Shown here: piece by piece, positions 8,571 through 25,027 of the stretch
How positions within the stretch are numbered: the stretch's first letter is position 1
Layout of the letters: every line of letters starts with the position of its first letter
Assembly: GCA_012840975.1 (NCBI GenBank)
Contig: DUVP01000033.1
Coordinates: 1-32,371 of the forward strand
Source of the DNA: Mogibacterium sp.
GTDB taxonomy: Bacteria; Bacillota; Clostridia; Peptostreptococcales; Anaerovoracaceae
Reading direction: 5' to 3'
Length of the DNA stretch: 32,371 bases
Translations under genes and position numbers: made by a program
Notes under the pieces: generated by a model
The model's database searches: none
Seen by the model: the letters and a program-made list of their open reading frames with translations, nothing else
What the model was told of the DNA's origin: nothing

Positions 8571-8578
8571 AAAATTAA
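8571..8578. repeat. Target-site duplication, left copy (AAAATTAA)
   Basis: AAAATTAA abuts the GG that starts the left terminal repeat. The same 8 bp abut the right end at 11220-11227. Eight base pairs is the duplication length of the ISL3 family. Confidence 0.75.
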
Positions 8579-8635
8579 GGCTCTATAACTTTTTTTGGGG
8601 TTTAGCAAAATGACGCTGTAACTTTGTTTGGGGTC
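8579..8635. repeat. Left terminal repeat with two binding boxes
   Basis: The outer box CTATAACTTTTTTTGGGGT (from 8582) and inner box CTGTAACTTTGTTTGGGGT (from 8616) are direct repeats of each other. The pair is mirrored at the right end. Confidence 0.75.
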
Positions 8636-8693
8636 AAAATAGAAAATTGAGAGGTCTTCTGAGTGTGTGAGAAGATCTCTTTTAAAGTATAAA

Positions 8694-9437
8694 TTACAAC
8701 TTTATGCTTGAGTTATTGTTAAGAGAATAGAGAGCTCTTTTCCTGAATCTTTCAAAATCCTTGTAACCCTTCCCATTTCTTTTAATAAGTTTAAGTCTGG
8801 AGTTAACAGACTCTACAGAACCGTTGGATATTCTTTTTCCATTATGACGATCGAAGCTGTTAACAATTTCTTTCCTCCATTTACGAAGAGACCTTTTTAC
8901 AGGCTGAAATTCACTAATGCCACTAGCGGATAATTCAATAATAAATTGATCCAGCCTGTAAGCAGCATTTTTGCTGTCCGAAGCTTTGTTAAAATAGGCA
9001 TAATTTTCTTTGTGGTAATAAGCTACTTCTAATTCGGGATGAATAGAAAGTAGTCTTTTAATAAGATCTGTTGCTTGAATATATCTACCTCCGGTTATGG
9101 CATCGCATCTTACAAGATTAAAAGCATGATTGATAAGTTTAATAACATGGAAACTATCCACACAAATTTTTGCTTGTATTTGACTGCATAAGTTTCATCG
9201 ATACAAATACATTCGGGCATCGGTATAGCATTTATTCCATCGTGATTGTCGAAAATACGGACAATGGTTGTCATAGAAACTTTCATAAGATTTGCTACTG
9301 TAGAAAATGTCATAGATGGAGATTTAAGCAGTTGCATAGTATGCAGAATGGTGTACTTCGAAATTCTTGTACCGGATTCTGTAAATGGGATTGGCTCTGA
9401 AAAAGATTTGTTGCAAATTAAAAATTAACATGAAGCG
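8694..9437 (-). pseudogene. Decayed ISL3-family transposase, copy A (C-terminal part plus remnant of the N-terminal part)
   Basis: Read on the minus strand, the upstream part (9437 to about 9165) has a zinc-ribbon tail ICNKSFSEPIPF, the HTH-containing SPSMTFSTVANLMKV segment and the DDE-domain start CICIDETYAVKYKQ. The sequence then jumps out of frame into ICVDSFHVIKLINHAFN, a deletion of about 60-70 codons. It runs to the conserved C-terminal RISNGSVESVNSRLKLIKRNGKGYK (split between residues about 110 and 135 of the 155-aa open frame) and stops at 8694. Compared with copy B it also lacks the first about 35 codons and the right terminal repeat. Inactive. Confidence 0.8.
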
Positions 9438-10605: not shown

Positions 10606-11093
10606 AAATATCCCACATATCCATAGAAACATATTGCACTTTTTCACATTCCGGACGAGGAATTGCAGAAAGATAGCATGCAATGTCTTTTTTGTTTCTG
10701 TTGGGAAGAAGATCAAAGATCTGACAGGTATGCATGTCTACAAGAACGCAAGCATAGGCTCTTTGCTTGTATTTGACCGCATAAATTTCATCGATACAAA
10801 TACATTCGGGCATCGGTATAGCATTCATTCCGGCATGATTGTCAAAAATACGGACAATGGTTGTCGTAGAAACTTTCATAAGATTTGCTACTGTAGAAAA
10901 TGTCATAGATGGAGATTTAAGCAGTTGTATAATACGCATAATGGTGTACTTCGAAATTCTTGCACTGGATCCTGTAAATGGGCTTGGCTCTTAAAGTGAT
11001 AAGGGCAAACTGTGTATACTCTGCAGATGAAATCTCAATATCCTGTATATCTTCTGGTTCTAAATTAAATAACTTTGTGATAATATCCTTCAT
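10606..11093 (-). pseudogene. Decayed ISL3-family transposase, copy B (N-terminal and middle part)
   Basis: On the minus strand an ATG at 11093 opens MKDIITKLFNLEPEDIQDIE, a typical ISL3 N-terminus. It continues to QFALITL and then joins directly to PFTGSSARISKYTIM in another frame, so the zinc ribbon is missing. The DDE start CICIDEIYAVKYKQRAYACV (partial) and the middle SMDMWD follow. Homology stops there, at about 10606, at the border with the cargo. This copy retains the region that copy A has lost, and lacks the C-terminal third that A retains. Confidence 0.8.
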
Positions 11094-11161: not shown

Positions 11162-11219
11162 CTGTGACCCCAAACAAAGTTATAGGTATATACCGCACAC
11201 CAAAAAAAGTTATAGGTCC
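11162..11219. repeat. Right terminal repeat with two binding boxes
   Basis: ACCCCAAACAAAGTTATAGG (inner) and ACCAAAAAAAGTTATAGGTCC-type (outer, split here as ACCAAAAAAAGTTATAGG plus TCC) mirror the left end. The element stops at 11219, next to AAAATTAA. Confidence 0.75.
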
Positions 11220-11227
11220 AAAATTAA
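11220..11227. repeat. Target-site duplication, right copy (AAAATTAA)
   Basis: Identical to 8571-8578 and directly adjacent to the right terminal repeat. Confidence 0.75.
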
Positions 11228-11270: not shown

Positions 11271-11299
11271 TTGACAGAAATCTTAAATCTAAGTATAAT
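11271..11299 (+). promoter_or_regulatory. Consensus sigma-70 promoter upstream of the fic gene
   Basis: TTGACA (11271-11276), exactly 17 bp, then TATAAT (11294-11299): a perfect vegetative promoter. The start codon is about 90 bp downstream. It lies 52 bp outside the mobile element and so belongs to the host side. Confidence 0.8.
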
Positions 11300-12607: not shown

Positions 12608-12638
12608 GACAGATTCTGTCATTCTGATTGCTTATAAT
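12608..12638 (+). promoter_or_regulatory. Promoter/operator of the WYL operon
   Basis: GACAGATTCTGTC (12608-12620) is a palindrome around a central T. It lies where the -35 box would be for TATAAT at 12633-12638. A dyad over the -35 region next to a gene for a WYL-type repressor is a natural autoregulatory operator. The start codon is about 75 bp downstream. Confidence 0.55.
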
Positions 12639-12713
12639 ATAGGCATAGAGTGACACAATATGGAAATGTTAATTATACCGATTAAATGTAACAAATAATT
12701 AACGGAGAGTTAT

Positions 12714-13685
12714 ATGGACATAATGAAGAGCGAAAAGACAAATCGAATACTGGATATTTACACCAAGCTGATGAGCGGATGTTTAATCAATAAATGTGAA
12801 GAGGCTGTTAAGTATGGTGTAAATGAGAGAAGTATTCAGCGTGACATTGATGATATCCGCAACTATTTGAGTGATGTCGCATTGGAGCAGGGGTACATGA
12901 ATTCAGTCATATATGATCGAGAACAGAAAGGGTATCGACTCGAGCAGATTTACAAAATAAGGCTTACCAACAGTGAGGTGCTTGCTGTATGTAAGATTTT
13001 ATTGGATAGTCGGGCTTTTACAAAAAAAGAAATGAAAAGTCTCCTTGACCGCCTGGTGGATTGCTGTGCTCCCAAAGTCAATCAGAAGATTGTAAGCGAT
13101 CTTATAAAGAATGAGGCATTTCACTATGTGGAACCTCGACATAGAACAGATTTTATAGATATAATGTGGGAAATTGGTATGGCAATCAGCACATGTAAAT
13201 ATATCGAGATCGGATATGAGAGACTTAAAGACAGGAAAAGCGTTATCCGCAAACTAAAGCCGGTCGCAATTATGTTTTCCGAATATTATTTTTATCTGAC
13301 GGCATTTATGGATGACGACGATGAATCTCGTGAGAATTTTGATGTTATTAATGATTCATTTCCGACAATATATCGGATTGACAGGATTACAAAGCTGAAG
13401 ACGCTGGATGAGCAATTCAGTATTCCGTATGTAAGTCGATTTGAGGAGGGAGAATTCCGTAAACGGGTACAGTTCATGTATGGCGGCAAATTGCAGAGAG
13501 TTAAATTCAGATATACCGGCATGGATATAGATGCTGTCCTCGACCGTCTTCCTACAGCGGAGATTACAGATGAGGATGATGAAGGATATATTGTCAGTGC
13601 AGAGGTTTTTGGTAAAGGAATAAATATGTGGCTTAGGAGTCAGGGAGATTATGTCAGCGTAATTGAAGGAGGGTTAGATAAATGA
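12714..13685 (+). CDS. WYL-domain transcriptional regulator
   Basis: 323 aa. An N-terminal winged helix-turn-helix of the HTH_11 kind (residues about 9-60, with NERSIQRDIDDIRNYL as the recognition part) is followed by the YDREQKGYRL wing. A linker region leads to a WYL domain (about 163-235) in which the name motif reads F-Y-L (YYFYLTAF, 191-198); YRIDRITKL at 220 closes it. A C-terminal extension (245-323, VQFMYGGKLQRVKFRYTG) is the usual WCX region. WYL proteins bind nucleic acid or nucleotide ligands and often repress defence operons (BrxR and CapW are characterised examples). The stop overlaps the next start (ATGA at 13682), so it heads a tightly coupled four-gene operon. Ribosome site GGAGAG. 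Confidence 0.92.
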   Translation: MDIMKSEKTNRILDIYTKLMSGCLINKCEEAVKYGVNERSIQRDIDDIRNYLSDVALEQGYMNSVIYDREQKGYRLEQIYKIRLTNSEVLAVCKILLDSRAFTKKEMKSLLDRLVDCCAPKVNQKIVSDLIKNEAFHYVEPRHRTDFIDIMWEIGMAISTCKYIEIGYERLKDRKSVIRKLKPVAIMFSEYYFYLTAFMDDDDESRENFDVINDSFPTIYRIDRITKLKTLDEQFSIPYVSRFEEGEFRKRVQFMYGGKLQRVKFRYTGMDIDAVLDRLPTAEITDEDDEGYIVSAEVFGKGINMWLRSQGDYVSVIEGGLDK

Positions 13686-15055
13686 TAGGGGCAATTATAG
13701 GTGATATTGTCGGCTCTCGCTTTGAAAGGGTGAATCACAAATCAAAGGAATTCGAATTGTTCGATAGAAAGTGCCGACCTACAGATGACAGCGTGATGAC
13801 TCTTGCAATTGCAAAAGCGATACTTGAATGTAAGGGAAATTTTGAGAACTTATCACAAAAAGCTATATCCAATATGCAAGAGTTCGGAAGAATATATAAG
13901 AAAGCCGGTTATGGCAGATCTTTTATAAAGTGGATATGGGCAGATGATCCTCAGCCATATAACAGCTACGGAAACGGTTCAGCAATGAGAGTCAGTCCTT
14001 GTGGATATGCTGCGACAAGTATAGAGGAAGCAAAAGAACTTTCCGCAATGGTTACTAAAGTAACACATAATCATCCGGAAGGGATGAAAGGAGCGGAGGC
14101 TGTTGCTGTCGCCATTTATCTTGCAAAAACCGGCAAGAGTAAAGAAGATATTAAGCAGTATATTCAGGATAATTATTACAATATCGATTTCACTATTGAT
14201 CAGATTCGGCTCGAATATGAATTTGATGTTTCATGTCAAGGCTCGGTACCGGTGGCGTTGGAAGCTTTTTTTGAATCTACGGACTTTGAGGACGCAATCA
14301 GGAATGCAATATCAGTCGGTGGAGACAGTGATACGATTGCTGCAATGACGGGGTCTATTGCTGAAGCTTTCTATGGTGTACCGGAGGAGACCATTGATTC
14401 TGCGATTGATTTTCTCGATGGTCGAGAAATGGAAATTTTGTACTATTTTGAAAAAGAATACCCGTCAAAAGCTTTCGACGAGGATGGAGAAACAACAATT
14501 AGCATATTTTGTGTGCTCGATAAATCTGTCGATAAAGTTATCCCTGCCGAGACAACTATAACTATAGACGGAGATTTAGACGGCGATGTTGTCCATGCTT
14601 GGGTAGACAATGTCGATATGATACCTGATTTCAGTTCTTTTGATAAGTCCGATCGCATAGAAGAAACAAAAGAGTTTTTGGAAAAGGCAGGTTCCGATGT
14701 AGTAAAAACCGCCAAAAAAGCAGGAGAAGGTATTTTTGCTGCTGCAAAATTTACAATAGACAGTATAAATAAGGCAAAAGATAAGGTAGTAGATAACTTG
14801 GAAAATTGCTATGAGCTTTGTGCAGATAACCCTGAAGATACAGAGAGAATAATGCGTGCTGTTAAGTTGCTTAATGCAGCAGGTTACGACACAAGAGTAA
14901 AAGTTACATCAGGAACAATGCGCGGATATGTCTTTGCAAAAGGATTAGAGTTTAGTAAAGCAGTAACAGTATTAGAATCTGAAGAAGGAATTTCATTGAA
15001 AGATAAACCTATGGATAAGAAAAAAGCAGATAAAATAAAGAAAAATGCAAAATAG
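13682..15055 (+). CDS. ADP-ribosylglycohydrolase (DraG/ARH family) with C-terminal extension
   Basis: 457 aa. Residues 1-255 are a complete ADP-ribosylglycohydrolase: GDIVGSRFE (7-15), RPTDDSVMTLA with the TDD metal ligands at 34-36, GNGSAMRVSP (98-106), THNHPEG (128-134), and GGDSDTIAAMTGSIAEA with D215, D217 and T218 completing the di-magnesium site. Such enzymes remove ADP-ribose from proteins, nucleic acids or small molecules. Residues about 260-457 are extra. There is an acidic beta-like part (265-320), then an amphipathic, Lys/Ala-rich helical part (about 330-365), then a small domain with AVKLLNAAGYDTRVKVTSGTM-like sequence (about 397-420), and a Lys-rich tail. I do not recognise this extension. 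No ADP-ribosyltransferase is visible nearby, so the substrate is open. Start overlaps the WYL stop by 4 bp. Confidence 0.9.
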   Translation: MIGAIIGDIVGSRFERVNHKSKEFELFDRKCRPTDDSVMTLAIAKAILECKGNFENLSQKAISNMQEFGRIYKKAGYGRSFIKWIWADDPQPYNSYGNGSAMRVSPCGYAATSIEEAKELSAMVTKVTHNHPEGMKGAEAVAVAIYLAKTGKSKEDIKQYIQDNYYNIDFTIDQIRLEYEFDVSCQGSVPVALEAFFESTDFEDAIRNAISVGGDSDTIAAMTGSIAEAFYGVPEETIDSAIDFLDGREMEILYYFEKEYPSKAFDEDGETTISIFCVLDKSVDKVIPAETTITIDGDLDGDVVHAWVDNVDMIPDFSSFDKSDRIEETKEFLEKAGSDVVKTAKKAGEGIFAAAKFTIDSINKAKDKVVDNLENCYELCADNPEDTERIMRAVKLLNAAGYDTRVKVTSGTMRGYVFAKGLEFSKAVTVLESEEGISLKDKPMDKKKADKIKKNAK

Positions 15056-15066
15056 GAGATTAAGAT

Positions 15067-16074
15067 ATGTCCTACAAAATTGGATCATTTAATGTAAGAA
15101 ATTTGTCATTTGTGGCAGGAGCAAGTCGTGATTTGGATACGATAGCAGATATCATCAAGGAGTTTGATATTATAGCTCTTCAAGAGGTATTAAGTGCAGG
15201 TAAAATACTGTGGGGGACGGATTCAGAAAAACCCTCCGTACAGGCAGAGTCTTACGAATATTCTCTGAAGAGTCGTCTGGGAAACAACTGGGATATGTGT
15301 TGGCTCGATCCTCAAGTGAAGGGAAAAGACTATGGGAATTTTAATGCTGATCAAAGAGGAGAAGGATACTCTTTCCTGTGGCGTAAAGATAAGTTTAAAT
15401 GTCCAGTGAATGCCTATGGTAAAGAAGTCAGACCGAGAATATATACACAATATAAAGTGGACAGATCAAATGGAGAAATGAGGCTTATCAGAGATCCGGG
15501 CTATGGAAGATTTCAACTTATAAATTTGCCAAATGTTGAGATACGCCTTATCACCACACATATAGTATATAAAAAGCCTAGTGAAGAAAATCTTTCAAAG
15601 GTAGTAGATTTCGGAGCATATATAATGAGAAGGAATGAATTTAATATTTTGGCACGTAGTATTTATACTTCAATAAGCGAAAACTATAACGATATAAGTT
15701 GTATCGTTCCTTACACCATTATACTTGGAGATTACAACTTGAATTTAGAAGAAAGCGGCGTCGGCTCCCCAAATGTTCCAGCTGTTATGGTGATAGATTC
15801 GCAGAAGAATATTGTGGAGACATCAGGAGTTTACGAGAATAAAGGTTTTTATAAAATATATACCAAGCAAGTAGATTTGACCACCATAAATAAGGACGCT
15901 GACAATTATGCTAGCAATTATGATCATTTCACATATGATGCTCGGACACGGGAAAATATCGTACGAGGGAAACCATATAGATTGGATGTAGTAGAAAAAG
16001 TCGGAGGACATAAGATGTATAAGGAAAAGGTATCTGACCATGTTCCGATAATGTTAGAAATTGATCTTAAATAA
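15067..16074 (+). CDS. Endonuclease/exonuclease/phosphatase (DNase I-fold) family protein
   Basis: 335 aa, cytoplasmic (no signal peptide). The metal-dependent phosphodiesterase core is complete: SFNVRN (Asn9), IIALQEV (Glu40, metal ligand), TTHIV (His165), GDYNL (Asp222, Asn224) and the terminal SDHVPI (Asp324, His325). NYDHF (Asp286-His287) adds another family position. This fold cleaves DNA, RNA, inositol phosphates or nucleotide conjugates; the substrate cannot be assigned. All catalytic positions are present, so it should be active. It follows the glycohydrolase by 11 bp, with AGGAG before the start, and precedes the 761-aa gene by 14 bp, so the three are co-expressed. In this context it may be the effector (nuclease) or a nucleotide-clearing enzyme. 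Confidence 0.88.
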   Translation: MSYKIGSFNVRNLSFVAGASRDLDTIADIIKEFDIIALQEVLSAGKILWGTDSEKPSVQAESYEYSLKSRLGNNWDMCWLDPQVKGKDYGNFNADQRGEGYSFLWRKDKFKCPVNAYGKEVRPRIYTQYKVDRSNGEMRLIRDPGYGRFQLINLPNVEIRLITTHIVYKKPSEENLSKVVDFGAYIMRRNEFNILARSIYTSISENYNDISCIVPYTIILGDYNLNLEESGVGSPNVPAVMVIDSQKNIVETSGVYENKGFYKIYTKQVDLTTINKDADNYASNYDHFTYDARTRENIVRGKPYRLDVVEKVGGHKMYKEKVSDHVPIMLEIDLK

Positions 16075-16088
16075 GGAGGATAACGAAA

Positions 16089-18374
16089 ATGAAAGATAAT
16101 ACGCATGAAATGCAGGAACAGTTAAAAGCTGCTTATGCTTTAAATATGTGTACTGTTTCGGTGTCTCAGATTGTAGATTACAACGATGAGTATATCCTGG
16201 AGCAGGAGTATGAAGCAATTTTAAATAACTTGAATTTGGAGCAAATACCAAAGGATGAAGCCTTATTAAATATTCTTGTAAAGCTTCTGAATGTAATTAC
16301 ATTCTTCAGGATTGATAAGGTAAAGAGAGCACAGATAGAAAAGAAGTATCAGCGAACTATGAAGAATGCTATATGGTCAGCGGTTCCGAATATTGGTGTA
16401 ATTGTTGCCGGCGAGCCACTTACTGTCGTTTTATCTCTTGCCACGCAGGTAGGGATTGGATACATGAATTATCGCAGAACTAAGGCAAATGCTTTAGCTG
16501 ATAAAGAGGATTCTGAGATTGAGCTGAGAATTACCGCAATGGAGCAATTTAACGCCCTGCGTCGTGAATTATTTACAACAGCATGGAGACTTGCTGATGA
16601 GTATAAATTCCCTGACAGATATCGCTTAACGGAGCGCCAGATAACACAATATAATGAAATCCTTATGGATACTGATGAAATCAGGAAATATGAGCGTTTG
16701 ACGGCTGTTCAGGATAAATTTGAGGCTTATCTGCCGTTCTGGTATTTTATAGGACATTCTGCAAAATATATATCTGAAGATCAAACCAACGGAATTGATT
16801 CTGAAACACGAAATTATTACAGAGATCAGGCAAAGAAGCATTTTGAGAAATTTGATGGCTTGAATTCTTTCAATATTCTCAGAGAAGATGAATTAACAGC
16901 TTCCTTTGCACTTGAATATATAGATTTGCTTCTTCTGGAAGAAAAACCGGATAAGGAAAAAATTGCTGATCTCATCAAAACTGCAGTAAAAATGGCAGGC
17001 AATGCAAATGATATTCTCGAATTGTGTGCCATTTCTTATTTAAAAATTGGACAGACAGAAGAGGCAGAAAAAATACTAAGAATACTCGTAAACGAAGATT
17101 ACAATACCGCTACCAATGCAAAGCTATTAAGTCGTATCTATGTGAGCCAATATCTTGAGGATACAAACTTTCTTGCAAAGGCACAGTATGACATTCTTGC
17201 TTCGAGAGTAACATCTGCATGGCTGTTCCCAATGCCGGATTATATAAATAGTAACCGTCTTCTTCAGGATAAGGAATTGCGAAATCAATATCTTTCCGAT
17301 CAGAGATTTGATCTCCAAAAGGAATATAGAGAGGTTATCAATCAATTTATCGAAAAGTATATAATTTTGTTCAATAGGATTATACCTGTTCCTGATAAAA
17401 ATGCACCAAGTGAATACTTCCGAAATACAGAGTCTTCTATAAGAAAAAGACGTCAGGATGTATATGATGCATTGCAAAGTGATGCAAGAAATGAGTATCA
17501 AAGGTCAATTCGTGAGTCAGGTTACAGATTTAGGTATGTGGAATTGATAAATGAGATGCTTCGGGCACTCGATACATTGAGGCTATTCCGTGAGAATGAT
17601 TTAAAGGAAGATATGATTCAACTTATACGGGATAATCTTGGAGAAGCAAGTGGCAATCTGAAAGAAATACAGGAAAAACTCAATCATGATGATTTTTCAA
17701 TAATGGATTATGAAAAAATTCAAAAGAGCTTTTCATTCCAAAGGCTGACCAAGGAGTTCTTTGATAAGCTCACGGAAAGCATTATGGACGAAATAGAAAA
17801 AGCTGAATCCCTGGATATTCTTGATGATATTGACCTGGATTTAGCAACATTTTGTATGGAACAAAGTATTGAAGAGAGGAATCTCAATGCTAACATAAAA
17901 ATTAATAGCTCTGAAACTGACGATGAAAATGATTATATTTCTCAGGATATTTTGGGTGAAGATGAACAGGATGAACGTTTCAATAGAAGAAGTTTTGAAA
18001 AAATGCTTACGACTGTAAAAGAGGCTTCTGATTCTATTATAGAGGATAGCGAAAAAGCAGAAATTTTGATTCGTGGAAGCCAAGAATTTGAACTTTATTT
18101 CAAAAATGTCAAGCTTAAAGGAGATGCTTTCAAATCAAAAACATTAGCAGTCATTGATGACAAAACGCGTACAGATTTGGATCTGTTTATTACAAGTGAT
18201 GGCATTGTACCGGTAAAGCGTAGCAAGGTGGATAAACTTCGTGAATTTGATAAACTCGAATATCAGGGAAAGAGCATAAAACTTGGGTGGCCGGAAGAAT
18301 ATTCAAATCGTGCGGTAAATGTTGGAAATTTGTATAATCTGTTAGAGAGACTTGGAAAAATTAGAAAAATATAA
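16089..18374 (+). CDS. Large uncharacterised protein, last gene of the WYL operon
   Basis: 761 aa, not recognised. The N-terminal 90 residues are helical and polar. Residues 94-128 (NAIWSAVPNIGVIVAGEPLT then VVLSLATQVGIGYMNYRR) form a hydrophobic, glycine-spaced stretch that could insert in a membrane or pack as a hairpin. A long helical region follows, with a TPR-like part (about 280-350; SYLKIGQTEEAEKILRILVN) and charged helices up to about 600. An acidic linker (about 610-640) precedes a C-terminal globular domain (about 665-761) that contains DKTRTDLDLFITSDGIVPVK and LGWPEEYSNRAVNVGNLYNL. There is no nuclease, NTPase or protease motif I can see. The ribosome site AAGGAGG is strong. A bidirectional terminator at 18430 closes the operon. 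Possibly the sensor or membrane effector of the system. Confidence 0.85.
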   Translation: MKDNTHEMQEQLKAAYALNMCTVSVSQIVDYNDEYILEQEYEAILNNLNLEQIPKDEALLNILVKLLNVITFFRIDKVKRAQIEKKYQRTMKNAIWSAVPNIGVIVAGEPLTVVLSLATQVGIGYMNYRRTKANALADKEDSEIELRITAMEQFNALRRELFTTAWRLADEYKFPDRYRLTERQITQYNEILMDTDEIRKYERLTAVQDKFEAYLPFWYFIGHSAKYISEDQTNGIDSETRNYYRDQAKKHFEKFDGLNSFNILREDELTASFALEYIDLLLLEEKPDKEKIADLIKTAVKMAGNANDILELCAISYLKIGQTEEAEKILRILVNEDYNTATNAKLLSRIYVSQYLEDTNFLAKAQYDILASRVTSAWLFPMPDYINSNRLLQDKELRNQYLSDQRFDLQKEYREVINQFIEKYIILFNRIIPVPDKNAPSEYFRNTESSIRKRRQDVYDALQSDARNEYQRSIRESGYRFRYVELINEMLRALDTLRLFRENDLKEDMIQLIRDNLGEASGNLKEIQEKLNHDDFSIMDYEKIQKSFSFQRLTKEFFDKLTESIMDEIEKAESLDILDDIDLDLATFCMEQSIEERNLNANIKINSSETDDENDYISQDILGEDEQDERFNRRSFEKMLTTVKEASDSIIEDSEKAEILIRGSQEFELYFKNVKLKGDAFKSKTLAVIDDKTRTDLDLFITSDGIVPVKRSKVDKLREFDKLEYQGKSIKLGWPEEYSNRAVNVGNLYNLLERLGKIRKI

Positions 18375-18429
18375 GAAGTTAATTGCAATATTTGAATAGA
18401 TTTAGGTAAATATATACAATATTAAAAGA

Positions 18430-18459
18430 AATGGTCTTCTCAAAGCTGAGAAGACCATT
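18430..18459. terminator. Bidirectional terminator between convergent genes
   Basis: AATGGTCTTCTC (18430-18441) and GAGAAGACCATT (18448-18459) form a perfect 12-bp stem. It lies between the end of the 761-aa gene and the end of the nitroreductase gene, so it can stop both transcripts. Confidence 0.8.
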
Positions 18460-22406: not shown

Positions 22407-23687
22407 ATGAGATTGGAACTCGGAAAAATCAATATCACTGATATCCAATTCGCTGAAGAGTCCAAAATCGACAATGGTGTCCTTTATGTCAATGCAGAGG
22501 AACTTAAACCACTTGTGCTTGAGGACGAGAAAATCAAAGACGTTTACTTTGATATCGCAAGACCAGGTGAATCCGTAAGAATCACACCGGTCAAAGACGT
22601 TATCGAACCTCGTGTAAAGGTCGAAGGAAAGGGTGGAGTTTTCCCGGGATGGATAGCCAAGGTAGATACCGTTGGATCCGGAAAAACTTATGCTCTCAAG
22701 GGAATGGCTGTTGTAACTGCCGGAAAAATCGTAGGTTTCCAGGAGGGAATCATCGATATGACAGGTTTGGGAGCAGAATATACACCGTTCTCAAAGACTT
22801 TGAACCTGGTCATGGTATGTGAGCCTATAGAAGGCGTTAAGCAGCATGATTATGAGCCGGCTGTAAGAAAAGCAGGATTTAGAGTAGCTGCAAGAATCGG
22901 TGAACTCGCAAGAGAACTTGTTCCTGATGAAACAGTAGTGTATGAGACACAGACTTTCAAAGAAGGAATAGATAAGTATCCTGATCTGCCAAGAGTCGGT
23001 TATGTATGCATGCTTCAGAGCCAGGGATTGCTCCATGACACATATGTTTACGGAGTAGACGTTAAGCAGATAATACCTACAATTATAAGTCCTACAGAAG
23101 TAATGGACGGTGCAATTGTATCCGGTAACTGTGTATCCGCTTGCGACAAGAACCCGACATATGTACATCAGAACAACCCTGTAGTAGAAGACCTCTTTGC
23201 ACAGCACGGTAAGACTTTGAATTTCGTAAGCATGATTATAACAAATGAGAACGTGTACCTGGCTGATAAGCAGAGATCTTCAGACATGACTGCAAAGATC
23301 TGCAGAATGCTTGACCTTGACGGAGTAATTATCACTCAGGAAGGATTCGGTAATCCTGATACAGACCTCATCATGAACTGTAAGAAGATTGAGGCGGAAG
23401 GAATCAAGACAGTAATCGTAACCGATGAGTATGCAGGCAGAGACGGAAAGTCCCAGTCCCTGGCGGATGCAGATGTTGCAGCTAATGCTGTAGTAACAGG
23501 CGGAAATGCAAACCAGCTTGTTATACTCCCTAAGCTTGACAAAGTAATCGGAACACTTGACTATGTCAACGTAATTGCCGGTGCAAGCGACCACACGCTG
23601 AGAGAAGACGGATCACTTGAAGTTGAGCTTCAGGTAATCACAGGCGCAACAAACGAAACCGGTTTCGGAAGACTCAGTGCAAGATAA
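22407..23687 (+). CDS. grdE: Glycine reductase component B, subunits alpha/beta precursor (GrdE)
   Basis: 426 aa proprotein of the substrate-binding component B. In characterised GrdE the chain is cut between Asn and Cys and the new N-terminal Cys becomes a pyruvoyl group, which forms a Schiff base with glycine. The site is visible here as SGNCVSACDKN, with Asn241-Cys242, the same number as in the Eubacterium (Peptoclostridium) acidaminophilum protein. The two products would be about 26 and 20 kDa. The ribosome site AAAGGAGGCGA is very strong. It forms the working component with the selenoprotein GrdB 26 bp downstream. Sarcosine and betaine paralogues (GrdG, GrdI) are similar; glycine is preferred because of the riboswitch, grdX and the complete A/C/Trx set around it. 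Confidence 0.92.
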   Translation: MRLELGKINITDIQFAEESKIDNGVLYVNAEELKPLVLEDEKIKDVYFDIARPGESVRITPVKDVIEPRVKVEGKGGVFPGWIAKVDTVGSGKTYALKGMAVVTAGKIVGFQEGIIDMTGLGAEYTPFSKTLNLVMVCEPIEGVKQHDYEPAVRKAGFRVAARIGELARELVPDETVVYETQTFKEGIDKYPDLPRVGYVCMLQSQGLLHDTYVYGVDVKQIIPTIISPTEVMDGAIVSGNCVSACDKNPTYVHQNNPVVEDLFAQHGKTLNFVSMIITNENVYLADKQRSSDMTAKICRMLDLDGVIITQEGFGNPDTDLIMNCKKIEAEGIKTVIVTDEYAGRDGKSQSLADADVAANAVVTGGNANQLVILPKLDKVIGTLDYVNVIAGASDHTLREDGSLEVELQVITGATNETGFGRLSAR

Positions 23688-23713
23688 GAATCAGGGAAAG
23701 GAGGAAATAAGAA

Positions 23714-25027
23714 ATGTCTAAAATTAAAGTAGTTCACTACATTAACCAGTTCTTTGCCGGAATAGGCGGAGAAGAAAAAGCCGATACCCCGGCAGAACTT
23801 CATAAAGGCGAAGTTATCGGACCCGGAATGGCATTCCAGAAGGGATTCGGAGAAGAAGCGGAGATCATCGCAACTATAGTGTGCGGAGACTCTTACTTCA
23901 ACGAAAACATAGACAAGGCTAAGGCGGAGATCCTGGAATGGGTTAAGGACCTTGCACCTGATTTGTTTGTTGCAGGACCGGCATTCAATGCAGGACGTTA
24001 CGGAGTAGCATGCGGAACTATTGCAACAGCAGTTCAGGAAGAGCTTGGAATCAAGTCGATGACAGGAATGTATGTTGAAAACCCCGGTGCAGACATGTAC
24101 AAGAACAAGGTTTACATTCTTGAGACAAGAGACAGTGCAGCAGGCATGAGACAGGCTGTTAAGAGCATGACGGCTTTCGCTCTCAAATACGGTAAAGGAG
24201 AGAAGATCGGTGCTTCCGTTGAAGACGGATATATGAATCAGGGAATTCGTGTAAACTTCTTCGAGAAGGAAAGAGGCTCCGCAAGAGCTGTAAAGATGCT
24301 TATTGCCAAGTTGAACGATAAACCGTTTACAACAGAGTATCCGATGCCTGTATTTGACAAAGTAGATCCGATGCCTGCAGTCAAGGATATGGCACATGCC
24401 AAGATAGCAATCGTAACTTCGGGAGGCATCGTAGCCAAGGGTAACCCTGATCATATCGAAAGCTCCAGTGCTTCCAAGTTTGGCGAATATGATATCGAAG
24501 GTCTTTGTGATCTTGATGAGAGCACACATGAAACGGCTCATGGAGGATTTGACCCTGTTTATGCAAACTATGACTCGGATAGAGTAATCCCTGTAGACGT
24601 TCTGTGCGATCTCGAAAAAGAAGGTGTTATCGGCAAGCTTCACACTAAATTCTACTCAACAGTTGGTAACGGAACAGCTGTAGCTTCATCCAAGAAATAC
24701 GGTGCAGAGATTGCAAAACTGCTCAAAGCCGACGGAGTTGATGCCGTGATACTTACCTCGACGTGAGGAACCTGTACTCGTTGCGGTGCAACGATGGTTA
24801 AGGAAATCGAGAGAGCCGGCTTCCCTGTAGCTCATATTTGCACAGTTACACCTATTTCAATGACAGTAGGAGCTAACAGAATTATCCCTGCTATTGCTAT
24901 ACCTCACCCTCTGGGCAACCCTGCACTTGATAAGGATGAGGAGAAAGCTCTTCGTCGTAAGATCGTTATGAATGCACTTAATGCACTTCAGACAGATATT
25001 GACGGACAGAAGGTATTTGAAGGTTAA
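23714..25027 (+). CDS. grdB: Glycine reductase component B gamma subunit, selenoprotein (GrdB)
   Basis: 437 aa when the in-frame TGA at 24764-24766 is read as selenocysteine (residue 351). The sequence around it is LTS-T-U-GTCTRCGATMV, the UxxCxxC motif of GrdB. After it the frame stays open to 25027 with the conserved PISMTVGANRIIPAIAIPHP and the family end. GrdB's selenocysteine attacks the carboxymethyl group of the glycine Schiff base and hands it to the selenocysteine of protein A. A 6-bp hairpin directly downstream (24779-24793) is a good SECIS. The start has AAAGGAGGAAATAAG upstream. Automated callers would end the gene at 24766 and begin a false small gene at 24794. Confidence 0.93.
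24779..24793 (+). promoter_or_regulatory. SECIS element in grdB
   Basis: CGTTGC-GGT-GCAACG forms a perfect 6-bp stem with a loop beginning with G, starting 19 nt after the TGA. That distance and loop fit the bacterial SECIS rule for binding SelB. Confidence 0.7.

Follow-up and report, generated by a model that had tools for sequence, protein, structure and literature searches.

We analysed a 32,371-nucleotide stretch of DNA from Mogibacterium sp. (GenBank contig DUVP01000033.1, here called the window), which is contig C25 of a 1.44-Mb assembly of 37 contigs that is 80.7% complete, and within it an operon of four genes, all on the plus strand. The first gene (12714..13685) encodes a transcription regulator of 323 amino acids (aa) with a weakly matching N-terminal helix-turn-helix (HTH), a WYL domain and a C-terminal extension. 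It is followed by a 457-aa ADP-ribosylglycohydrolase (ARH; 13682..15055) carrying an additional C-terminal region of unknown family, by a 335-aa DNase I-like enzyme of the EEP type (15067..16074), and by a 761-aa protein that we call TPX (16089..18374). The original prediction, made from this DNA alone, described the genes as tightly packed, and the coordinates of the open reading frames (ORFs) agree: a 4-bp overlap is followed by gaps of 11 and 14 bp. It also placed a palindromic operator before the operon, which we recover at 12608..12620 on the plus strand as GACAGATTCTGTC, a predicted WYL-binding site of the form GACA-N5-TGTC that is conserved in the promoters of relatives. A −10 element, TATAAT (12633..12638, plus strand), lies 12 bp 3' of this DriD-like box, and the box occupies the position where a −35 element would lie. 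The shared terminator that had been assigned to the operon is less convincing. The hairpin at 18430..18459 has 13-bp arms and is doubtful as the operon's own terminator because its T-run exists on the minus strand alone, behind a facing nitroreductase gene whose terminator it would mainly be.

Comparison of loci indicates that the core of this operon is EEP and TPX, which travel as a pair. We draw this conclusion because EEP accompanies TPX at 48 of 62 loci, because the two match the same six of 393 genomes, and because WYL and ARH genes are far rarer. The loci come from one scan of genome contigs with a TPX profile built from six rows, window included; it matched 88 stretches, of which 65 encode a relative, giving 62 distinct loci, by record title mostly in Bacillota, with three in Bacteroidota, two in Spirochaetota (three TPX rows) and five distant ones from other groups. 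BLAST with the window's EEP finds a relative at 45 of these loci and a profile adds three more (L019, L039, L063). In the 45, the EEP gene lies directly upstream of TPX 39 times (35 of these with a gap no larger than 50 bp), further upstream behind intervening genes five times, and directly downstream once. When the 393 genomes of the order were searched with both profiles, EEP at E ≤ 1e-20 and TPX at E ≤ 1e-10, the two sets of matches fell in the same six genomes and nowhere else, a result to be read with the fact that the EEP profile was built from TPX neighbours and so is biased toward co-occurrence. Moreover, across 46 EEP-TPX pairs the distances of the two proteins correlate (r = 0.36, while 2000 permutations reach at most 0.20), which supports a shared history with some reshuffling.

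The other two genes behave differently. A WYL gene of the window's family is found at 14 of the 62 loci by profile and at 11 by BLAST, in some cases several genes away, and ARH at three (L007, L008, L009). The original prediction had treated the four genes as one system and had named, as what would speak against it, homologues of TPX occurring mostly outside this neighbourhood. That is largely what we see: only L007, in Butyrivibrio sp. LC3010, has all four genes, in the same order as the window, and the other 61 loci, some of them cut by contig ends, lack the full set. These counts lead us to reject a four-gene unit. A 7.4-kb contig (L144) that has neither EEP nor TPX carries a WYL gene followed by an ARH gene sharing 62% identity with the window's; because of this, and because the full set is confined to L007 and the window, the operon resembles a mosaic in which a WYL-ARH segment is joined to an EEP-TPX segment. 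No description of this gene set was found in the open-licence PubMed Central (PMC) literature, and the suggestion that an undescribed module lies here, one that includes a WYL regulator and is preceded by a palindromic operator, is supported.

By the searches made, TPX matches no known family. It has no Pfam, NCBIfam, PADLOC or PDB family; its Pfam matches are below threshold, the best being TPR_19 at 0.011 (a weak TPR signal at about residues 295-349); its profile finds no relative in the PDB, with a best match of 0.027; and no Pfam family occurs in more than two of 51 TPX rows. Median identity to the window's protein, with residues 1-60 outside the scoring, is 57-61% over residues 60-230, 38-41% over 230-430 and 17-27% thereafter, so that a better conserved part up to about residue 430 is followed by a fast-changing one (430-761). 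The conserved part includes a glycine-rich hydrophobic stretch at about residues 99-125. The earlier description of TPX as touching the membrane is borderline, since the stretch exists and its best 19-residue hydropathy is 1.62 (residues 99-117). Relatives 73-76% identical to the window's protein are from records titled Butyrivibrio, Solobacterium (a metagenome-assembled genome) and uncultured Clostridiales, and they fall in a strongly supported five-row clade of a quick tree. A C-terminal PH-like domain, seen by eye and without Pfam support, was dropped.

Two further observations concern TPX and its neighbours. The five distant relatives (L064 to L068, from Syntrophaceae, Hydrogenedentes, Achromatium, Pyramidobacter and Planctomycetaceae), near which the profile finds no EEP, start with an apparent signal peptide by eye and look exported; that of L067 ends in Sel1 repeats, and a guess that a neighbour in L065 is an S1/P1-type nuclease was dropped for want of a Pfam match. 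A hydrophobic DUF697-like gene of one family adjoins TPX at 11 loci (L011, L012, L013, L014, L016, L041, L052, L056, L059, L060, L062). The L062 gene reaches the Pfam cut-off for DUF697 and the L013 gene misses it, and the genes of L059, L060 and L062 carry an extra N-terminal stretch.

The EEP enzyme (Pfam Exo_endo_phos, 3e-7) most resembles DNases. The best PDB matches of its profile are DNase gamma (9.4e-9) and DNase I (1.2e-7), and an active-site pattern of Asn, Glu, His, Asp-x-Asn, Asp-His and Ser-Asp-His (N9, E40, H165, D222, N224, D286, H287, S323, D324 and H325) is kept in 90-100% of 43 EEP rows, at positions that have roles in DNase I. The sole NCBIfam name it receives is the MnuA membrane nuclease (NF045851), at 31.4 bits against a cut-off of 185. 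The enzyme thus shares active-site positions and its best sequence matches with DNase I, DNase gamma and MnuA, but it falls far below the MnuA cut-off, its chain opens directly with the enzyme domain (by eye), and it has TPX as a partner. These likenesses suggest DNA as its probable substrate. ARH matches Pfam PF03747 over residues 1-233 at 3.8e-36, with 125.7 bits against a cut-off of 26.2, and has by eye the Asp-Asp and Asp-Ser-Asp motifs of the DraG/ARH group; it differs from that group in missing the DraG and Tri1 equivalog cut-offs and in its extra C-terminal region. Another possible link to ADP-ribose is that macro-domain-like genes (by eye, one BLAST cluster) occur in the flanks of L015, L026, L040 and L054.

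We now turn to the promoter. If TATAAT occupies −12 to −7, the box sits at about −37 to −25. The same 13 letters recur without change before the first gene of the L007 operon. In the window the box with a −10 at 12 bp is a single match where 0.02 is expected, and the bare palindrome form occurs three times against 0.41 expected. Across 58 scanned TPX loci, GACA-N5-TGTC-N12-TANNNT stands before the operon in 6 of the 9 loci with a WYL protein at least 45% identical to the window's and in none of the 49 others (p = 2e-6), a test that is partly circular because N12-TANNNT was read off the first promoters, some of which were among those tested, and because more start points were scanned in WYL loci. 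A second set, which is not circular in this way, came from a WYL profile search of the 393 genomes that gave 22 places in 18 genomes; it comprises the 19 loci, two of them fragments, that remain once the window, the L011 operon and one of the halves of a broken gene are set aside. The strict box lies near 10 of these 19, while 200 dinucleotide shuffles average 0.03 and never exceed 1 of 19. At L126 the box follows the WYL gene and precedes the next one. Six whole genomes contain 13 matches to the strict form, fewer than the 20 of a reversed control pattern, so the case for the box rests on placing and not on number: seven of the 13 lie at or within about 10 kb of the operons studied here, and in G405, G407 and G408 (2.1, 3.3 and 2.6 Mb) the single match is the operon promoter. 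The window's own genome has the form with a 12-bp gap once. At the level of sequence, comparison establishes the box, its 12-bp spacing and its link to the WYL family.

What kind of regulator would bind such a box? The WYL domain passes its Pfam cut-off (2.2e-5), and a PADLOC WYL model covers residues 8-238 at 4e-14. The PDB matches of the WYL profile include PafBC, BrxR (1.7e-5), CapW (0.0025) and DriD (7tzv), the last aligned over residues 151-323 (E 1.9e-4, 22.8 bits), the longest stretch among the matches; the PafBC match is stronger but shorter. PMC12340889, which names the entry 7tzv, describes DriD of Caulobacter crescentus as a WYL homodimer that, bound to single-stranded DNA (ssDNA), activates transcription. 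Its consensus there is ATACGAC(N7)GTCGTAT, a test oligonucleotide includes GACAGTAACTGTC, its sites overlap the −35 at a single distance from the −10, and a G at −14 is called conserved; among gaps of 10-14 bp, by our derivation, only 12 puts a G at −14 in all three promoters printed in that paper. DriD also has sites in the promoter of the endonuclease gene bapE. The window's regulator shares with DriD a WYL domain with a C-terminal (WCX) extension, a GAC-N7-GTC site over the −35 and the same derived distance to the −10, and the bapE sites of DriD, at an endonuclease gene, add to the likeness. It differs in phylum, in reaching only 22.8 bits against the DriD core, and in a family that is mostly tied to one local operon, whereas DriD has scattered targets. 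Because the position and spacing of the box match DriD sites, a DriD-type activator is more likely than a repressor.

The analogy may extend to the ligand. SiwR and PafBC (mycobacteria) are WYL activators triggered by ssDNA, in which changing a pair of arginines abolishes ssDNA binding, and SiwR controls its adjacent operon through a palindrome. The window's regulator has an arginine pair with the same R-x-x-R spacing, R221 and R224; across 10 rows the first is nearly invariant and the second invariant. There are also differences, PafBC being a heterodimer with a −26 motif and the target genes being unrelated to the window's. By this analogy ssDNA would be the ligand here too.

The box and the WYL family occur together beyond EEP-TPX. 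At L147 to L151 the box precedes a small GGDEF-type gene and then a WYL gene of the window's family (the GGDEF assignment is from Pfam in L147 and by eye in the other four), and at L148 dynamin, patatin and TIR genes adjoin. An island at L119 (G404:C41, 2354-17263) has the box before a second ADP-ribosylglycohydrolase gene and also holds RF-1-type (PrfH-like), MoxR-like, VWA and RtcB genes, a WYL gene of the window's family and three large dynamin-like genes. The box at L014 also stands before an FtsK gene and a 207-aa gene, and L051 has a Y-family polymerase and a weakly YolD-like gene just upstream of EEP-TPX-WYL. Judged from gene content, these contexts fit DNA damage or conflict. In a Spirochaete genome (G409), the strict box also precedes rmuC (Pfam 5.7e-67) and a sigma-70-type factor gene (L083, L086).

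The module appears to be accessory, as had been proposed, and it is patchy and probably mobile. Of 47 genomes of the genus, 3 have a full TPX, among them the one to which the window belongs, and on this ground we reject a housekeeping operon. Serine-recombinase genes occur in several TPX loci (by eye, with Pfam checked for one in L069), just upstream of EEP-TPX in L069 and L047, and one viral-labelled contig carries EEP-TPX behind two of them. Two bins of the genus share a contig (99.3% identical) with EEP-TPX remnants at its end (L107, L108), perhaps through mis-binning.

We propose, with a probability of roughly 0.45, that the operon is a mobile, inducible nuclease module with an EEP-TPX core and a DriD-type WYL switch. 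A WYL dimer, most likely loaded with ssDNA from damage or phage replication, would bind GACA-N5-TGTC across the −35 and recruit RNA polymerase to a promoter that has no good −35 element, raising expression of WYL itself and of the ARH, EEP and TPX genes. EEP would then cut DNA, with TPX as a scaffold or gate whose variable C-terminal half sets the target or trigger, and invading or irreparably damaged DNA, or the cell, would be destroyed. ARH would be an addition specific to the lineage, serving to remove ADP-ribose marks. The steps that we infer are ssDNA as the ligand, activation rather than repression, DNA as what EEP cuts, all the functions assigned to TPX, and an outcome in defence or suicide. 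Defence, suicide and repair are indistinguishable from sequence, and a defence function is plausible but unproven.

A more ambitious version, which we consider doubtful, holds that this is an undescribed mobile nuclease system in which ssDNA from phage or damage acts through a DriD-type WYL activator to turn on a DNase I-like enzyme that a new TPR-type protein holds, and that WYL and its box are a plug-in switch for unrelated accessory modules of Clostridia (GGDEF, dynamin, TIR, patatin, RtcB). If true, it would amount to an SOS-independent, ssDNA-triggered layer of inducible immunity or repair. Our analysis predicts that the 13-bp box with its −10 element marks the promoters of WYL-headed accessory modules in Clostridia; if WYL does answer to ssDNA, this one signal could turn on mobile stress or defence modules without LexA. 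The analysis further singles out EEP-TPX as a pair, a conserved active site with a partner of unknown fold, and if we are right an undescribed nuclease triggered by damage or phage is possible.

A number of observations weigh against the proposal, in addition to the circularity of the 58-locus test, the bias of the EEP profile and the richer yield of the reversed control pattern. At 14 of the 62 TPX loci no EEP was found. In three of these (L010, L055, L059) TPX is truncated or begins at the edge of a contig, three (L032, L036, L061) are near-copies of a single locus, five (L064 to L068) make up the distant group, and this leaves L025, L029 and L034. The strict box is missing from 3 of the 9 promoters with a close WYL relative, from 9 of the 19 WYL loci of the second set and from 52 of the 58 scanned loci; because of this last count, and because most EEP-TPX loci have no WYL gene of the window's family, control by WYL and box is optional. 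A LexA box was found upstream of none of the 58 TPX loci, so that nothing links loci without WYL to DNA damage. The HTH at the N-terminus of WYL is below threshold (Pfam HTH_11, E 0.077). TPX was found in no record of the phage or plasmid collections (tblastn to 1e-5), and we reject it as phage or plasmid cargo; EEP was likewise found in no record of the plasmid collection, the only one searched for it. Finally, few defence genes adjoin. PADLOC was run on 143 of 616 neighbouring ORFs of at least 100 aa, namely the nearest 150 minus nine (by no rule) plus two others, the 616 being counted without the window, L008, L036, L061 and L069. At 1e-8 it returned 91 families, and the matches listed, restriction and DISARM-like models among them, are scattered, with all but one of the 25 listed families matching a single ORF; as a scan with no matched control, it is weak either way on enrichment in defence islands. 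Up to E 0.1, PADLOC has no model for either EEP or TPX of the window; a scan of EEP relatives gave one weak match among 43 rows, at E 0.0073.

How do other explanations fare against these data? One is that EEP acts not on DNA but as a phosphodiesterase or phosphatase on a nucleotide messenger, a sugar phosphate or a lipid, and that TPX places it at the membrane. Activities of this kind do occur among EEP enzymes. The conserved hydrophobic stretch of TPX, the GGDEF gene that adjoins related WYL genes elsewhere and a weak PDB match to a mannosyl-6-phosphatase (4c1r, 0.0013) all suit this idea, yet among solved structures DNases are closer by several orders of magnitude, and the 14 PDB sequences listed for the EEP profile (E up to 0.01) include no sphingomyelinase, which leaves it rather unlikely. 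The argument over the regulator turns on geometry. WYL could be a repressor of the CapW or BrxR kind, shutting off the operon, with release by a ligand in the course of infection. PMC9122588 and PMC9122601 describe such repressors at the head of CBASS and BREX loci; both are among the PDB matches of our WYL profile, a WYL regulator with a palindromic site heads our accessory operon as well, and a box over the −35 could also exclude the sigma factor. In those papers, however, CapW binds at sites that overlap the −10, and the BrxR site that was examined falls immediately downstream of the promoter, whereas the window's box lies neither over nor after the −10 but straddles the −35 at a fixed 12 bp, as DriD sites do; moreover, the partner genes described there are not in our operon. 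We therefore regard the repressor of the original prediction as doubtful, and as an unlikely account of the operon.

Two further readings concern how the genes belong together. EEP and TPX might be a toxin and its antidote, kept by a carrying mobile element, and their tight two-gene order, patchy spread and upstream serine recombinases (L069, L047) would suit such a pair. Usual antidotes are far smaller than TPX (about 760 aa), and TPX genes without a found EEP exist (L025, L032, L034); we judge this improbable. The original prediction's view of the four genes as a single system for ADP-ribose or NAD stress or for defence seems to us very improbable. It gains from the identical gene order in Butyrivibrio sp. 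LC3010, from the WYL-ARH contig L144 and from the box before another ARH gene in L119, but ARH and the full set are scarce among the TPX loci, and ARH and EEP-TPX are also found apart.

Some features of the window's flanks complete the picture. The original prediction put a Fic gene and a mobile element directly upstream. The Fic gene is real (Pfam 6e-12), while the element is an ISL3 transposase fragment at 8694-9161 (minus strand; Pfam 4.8e-28), about 3.5 kb upstream. We dropped Fic as a member of the system, since BLAST finds relatives at two other TPX loci alone, both weak. About 90 bp upstream of the Fic gene lies a perfect TTGACA-17-TATAAT promoter (11271-11299). Inverted repeats of 21-29 bp flank the ISL3 fragment at 8573-8636 and 11165-11225, some 2.5 kb from each other, and resemble the termini of a decayed element. 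The two loci with the closest cyclodeaminase orthologues (L105, L106) have neither the window's nitroreductase gene nor its operon genes, and no empty site could be read from them. On the right flank, glycine/sarcosine/betaine reductase genes, including the selenoprotein B family, occupy 22407-24766. Finally, a 239-bp direct repeat, 92% identical between its copies (9169-9407 and 10762-11000), surrounds an HTH-membrane gene and a 198-aa gene, and each copy carries GACAATGGTTGTC, another WYL-type palindrome, with a 13-bp gap to a weak −10.

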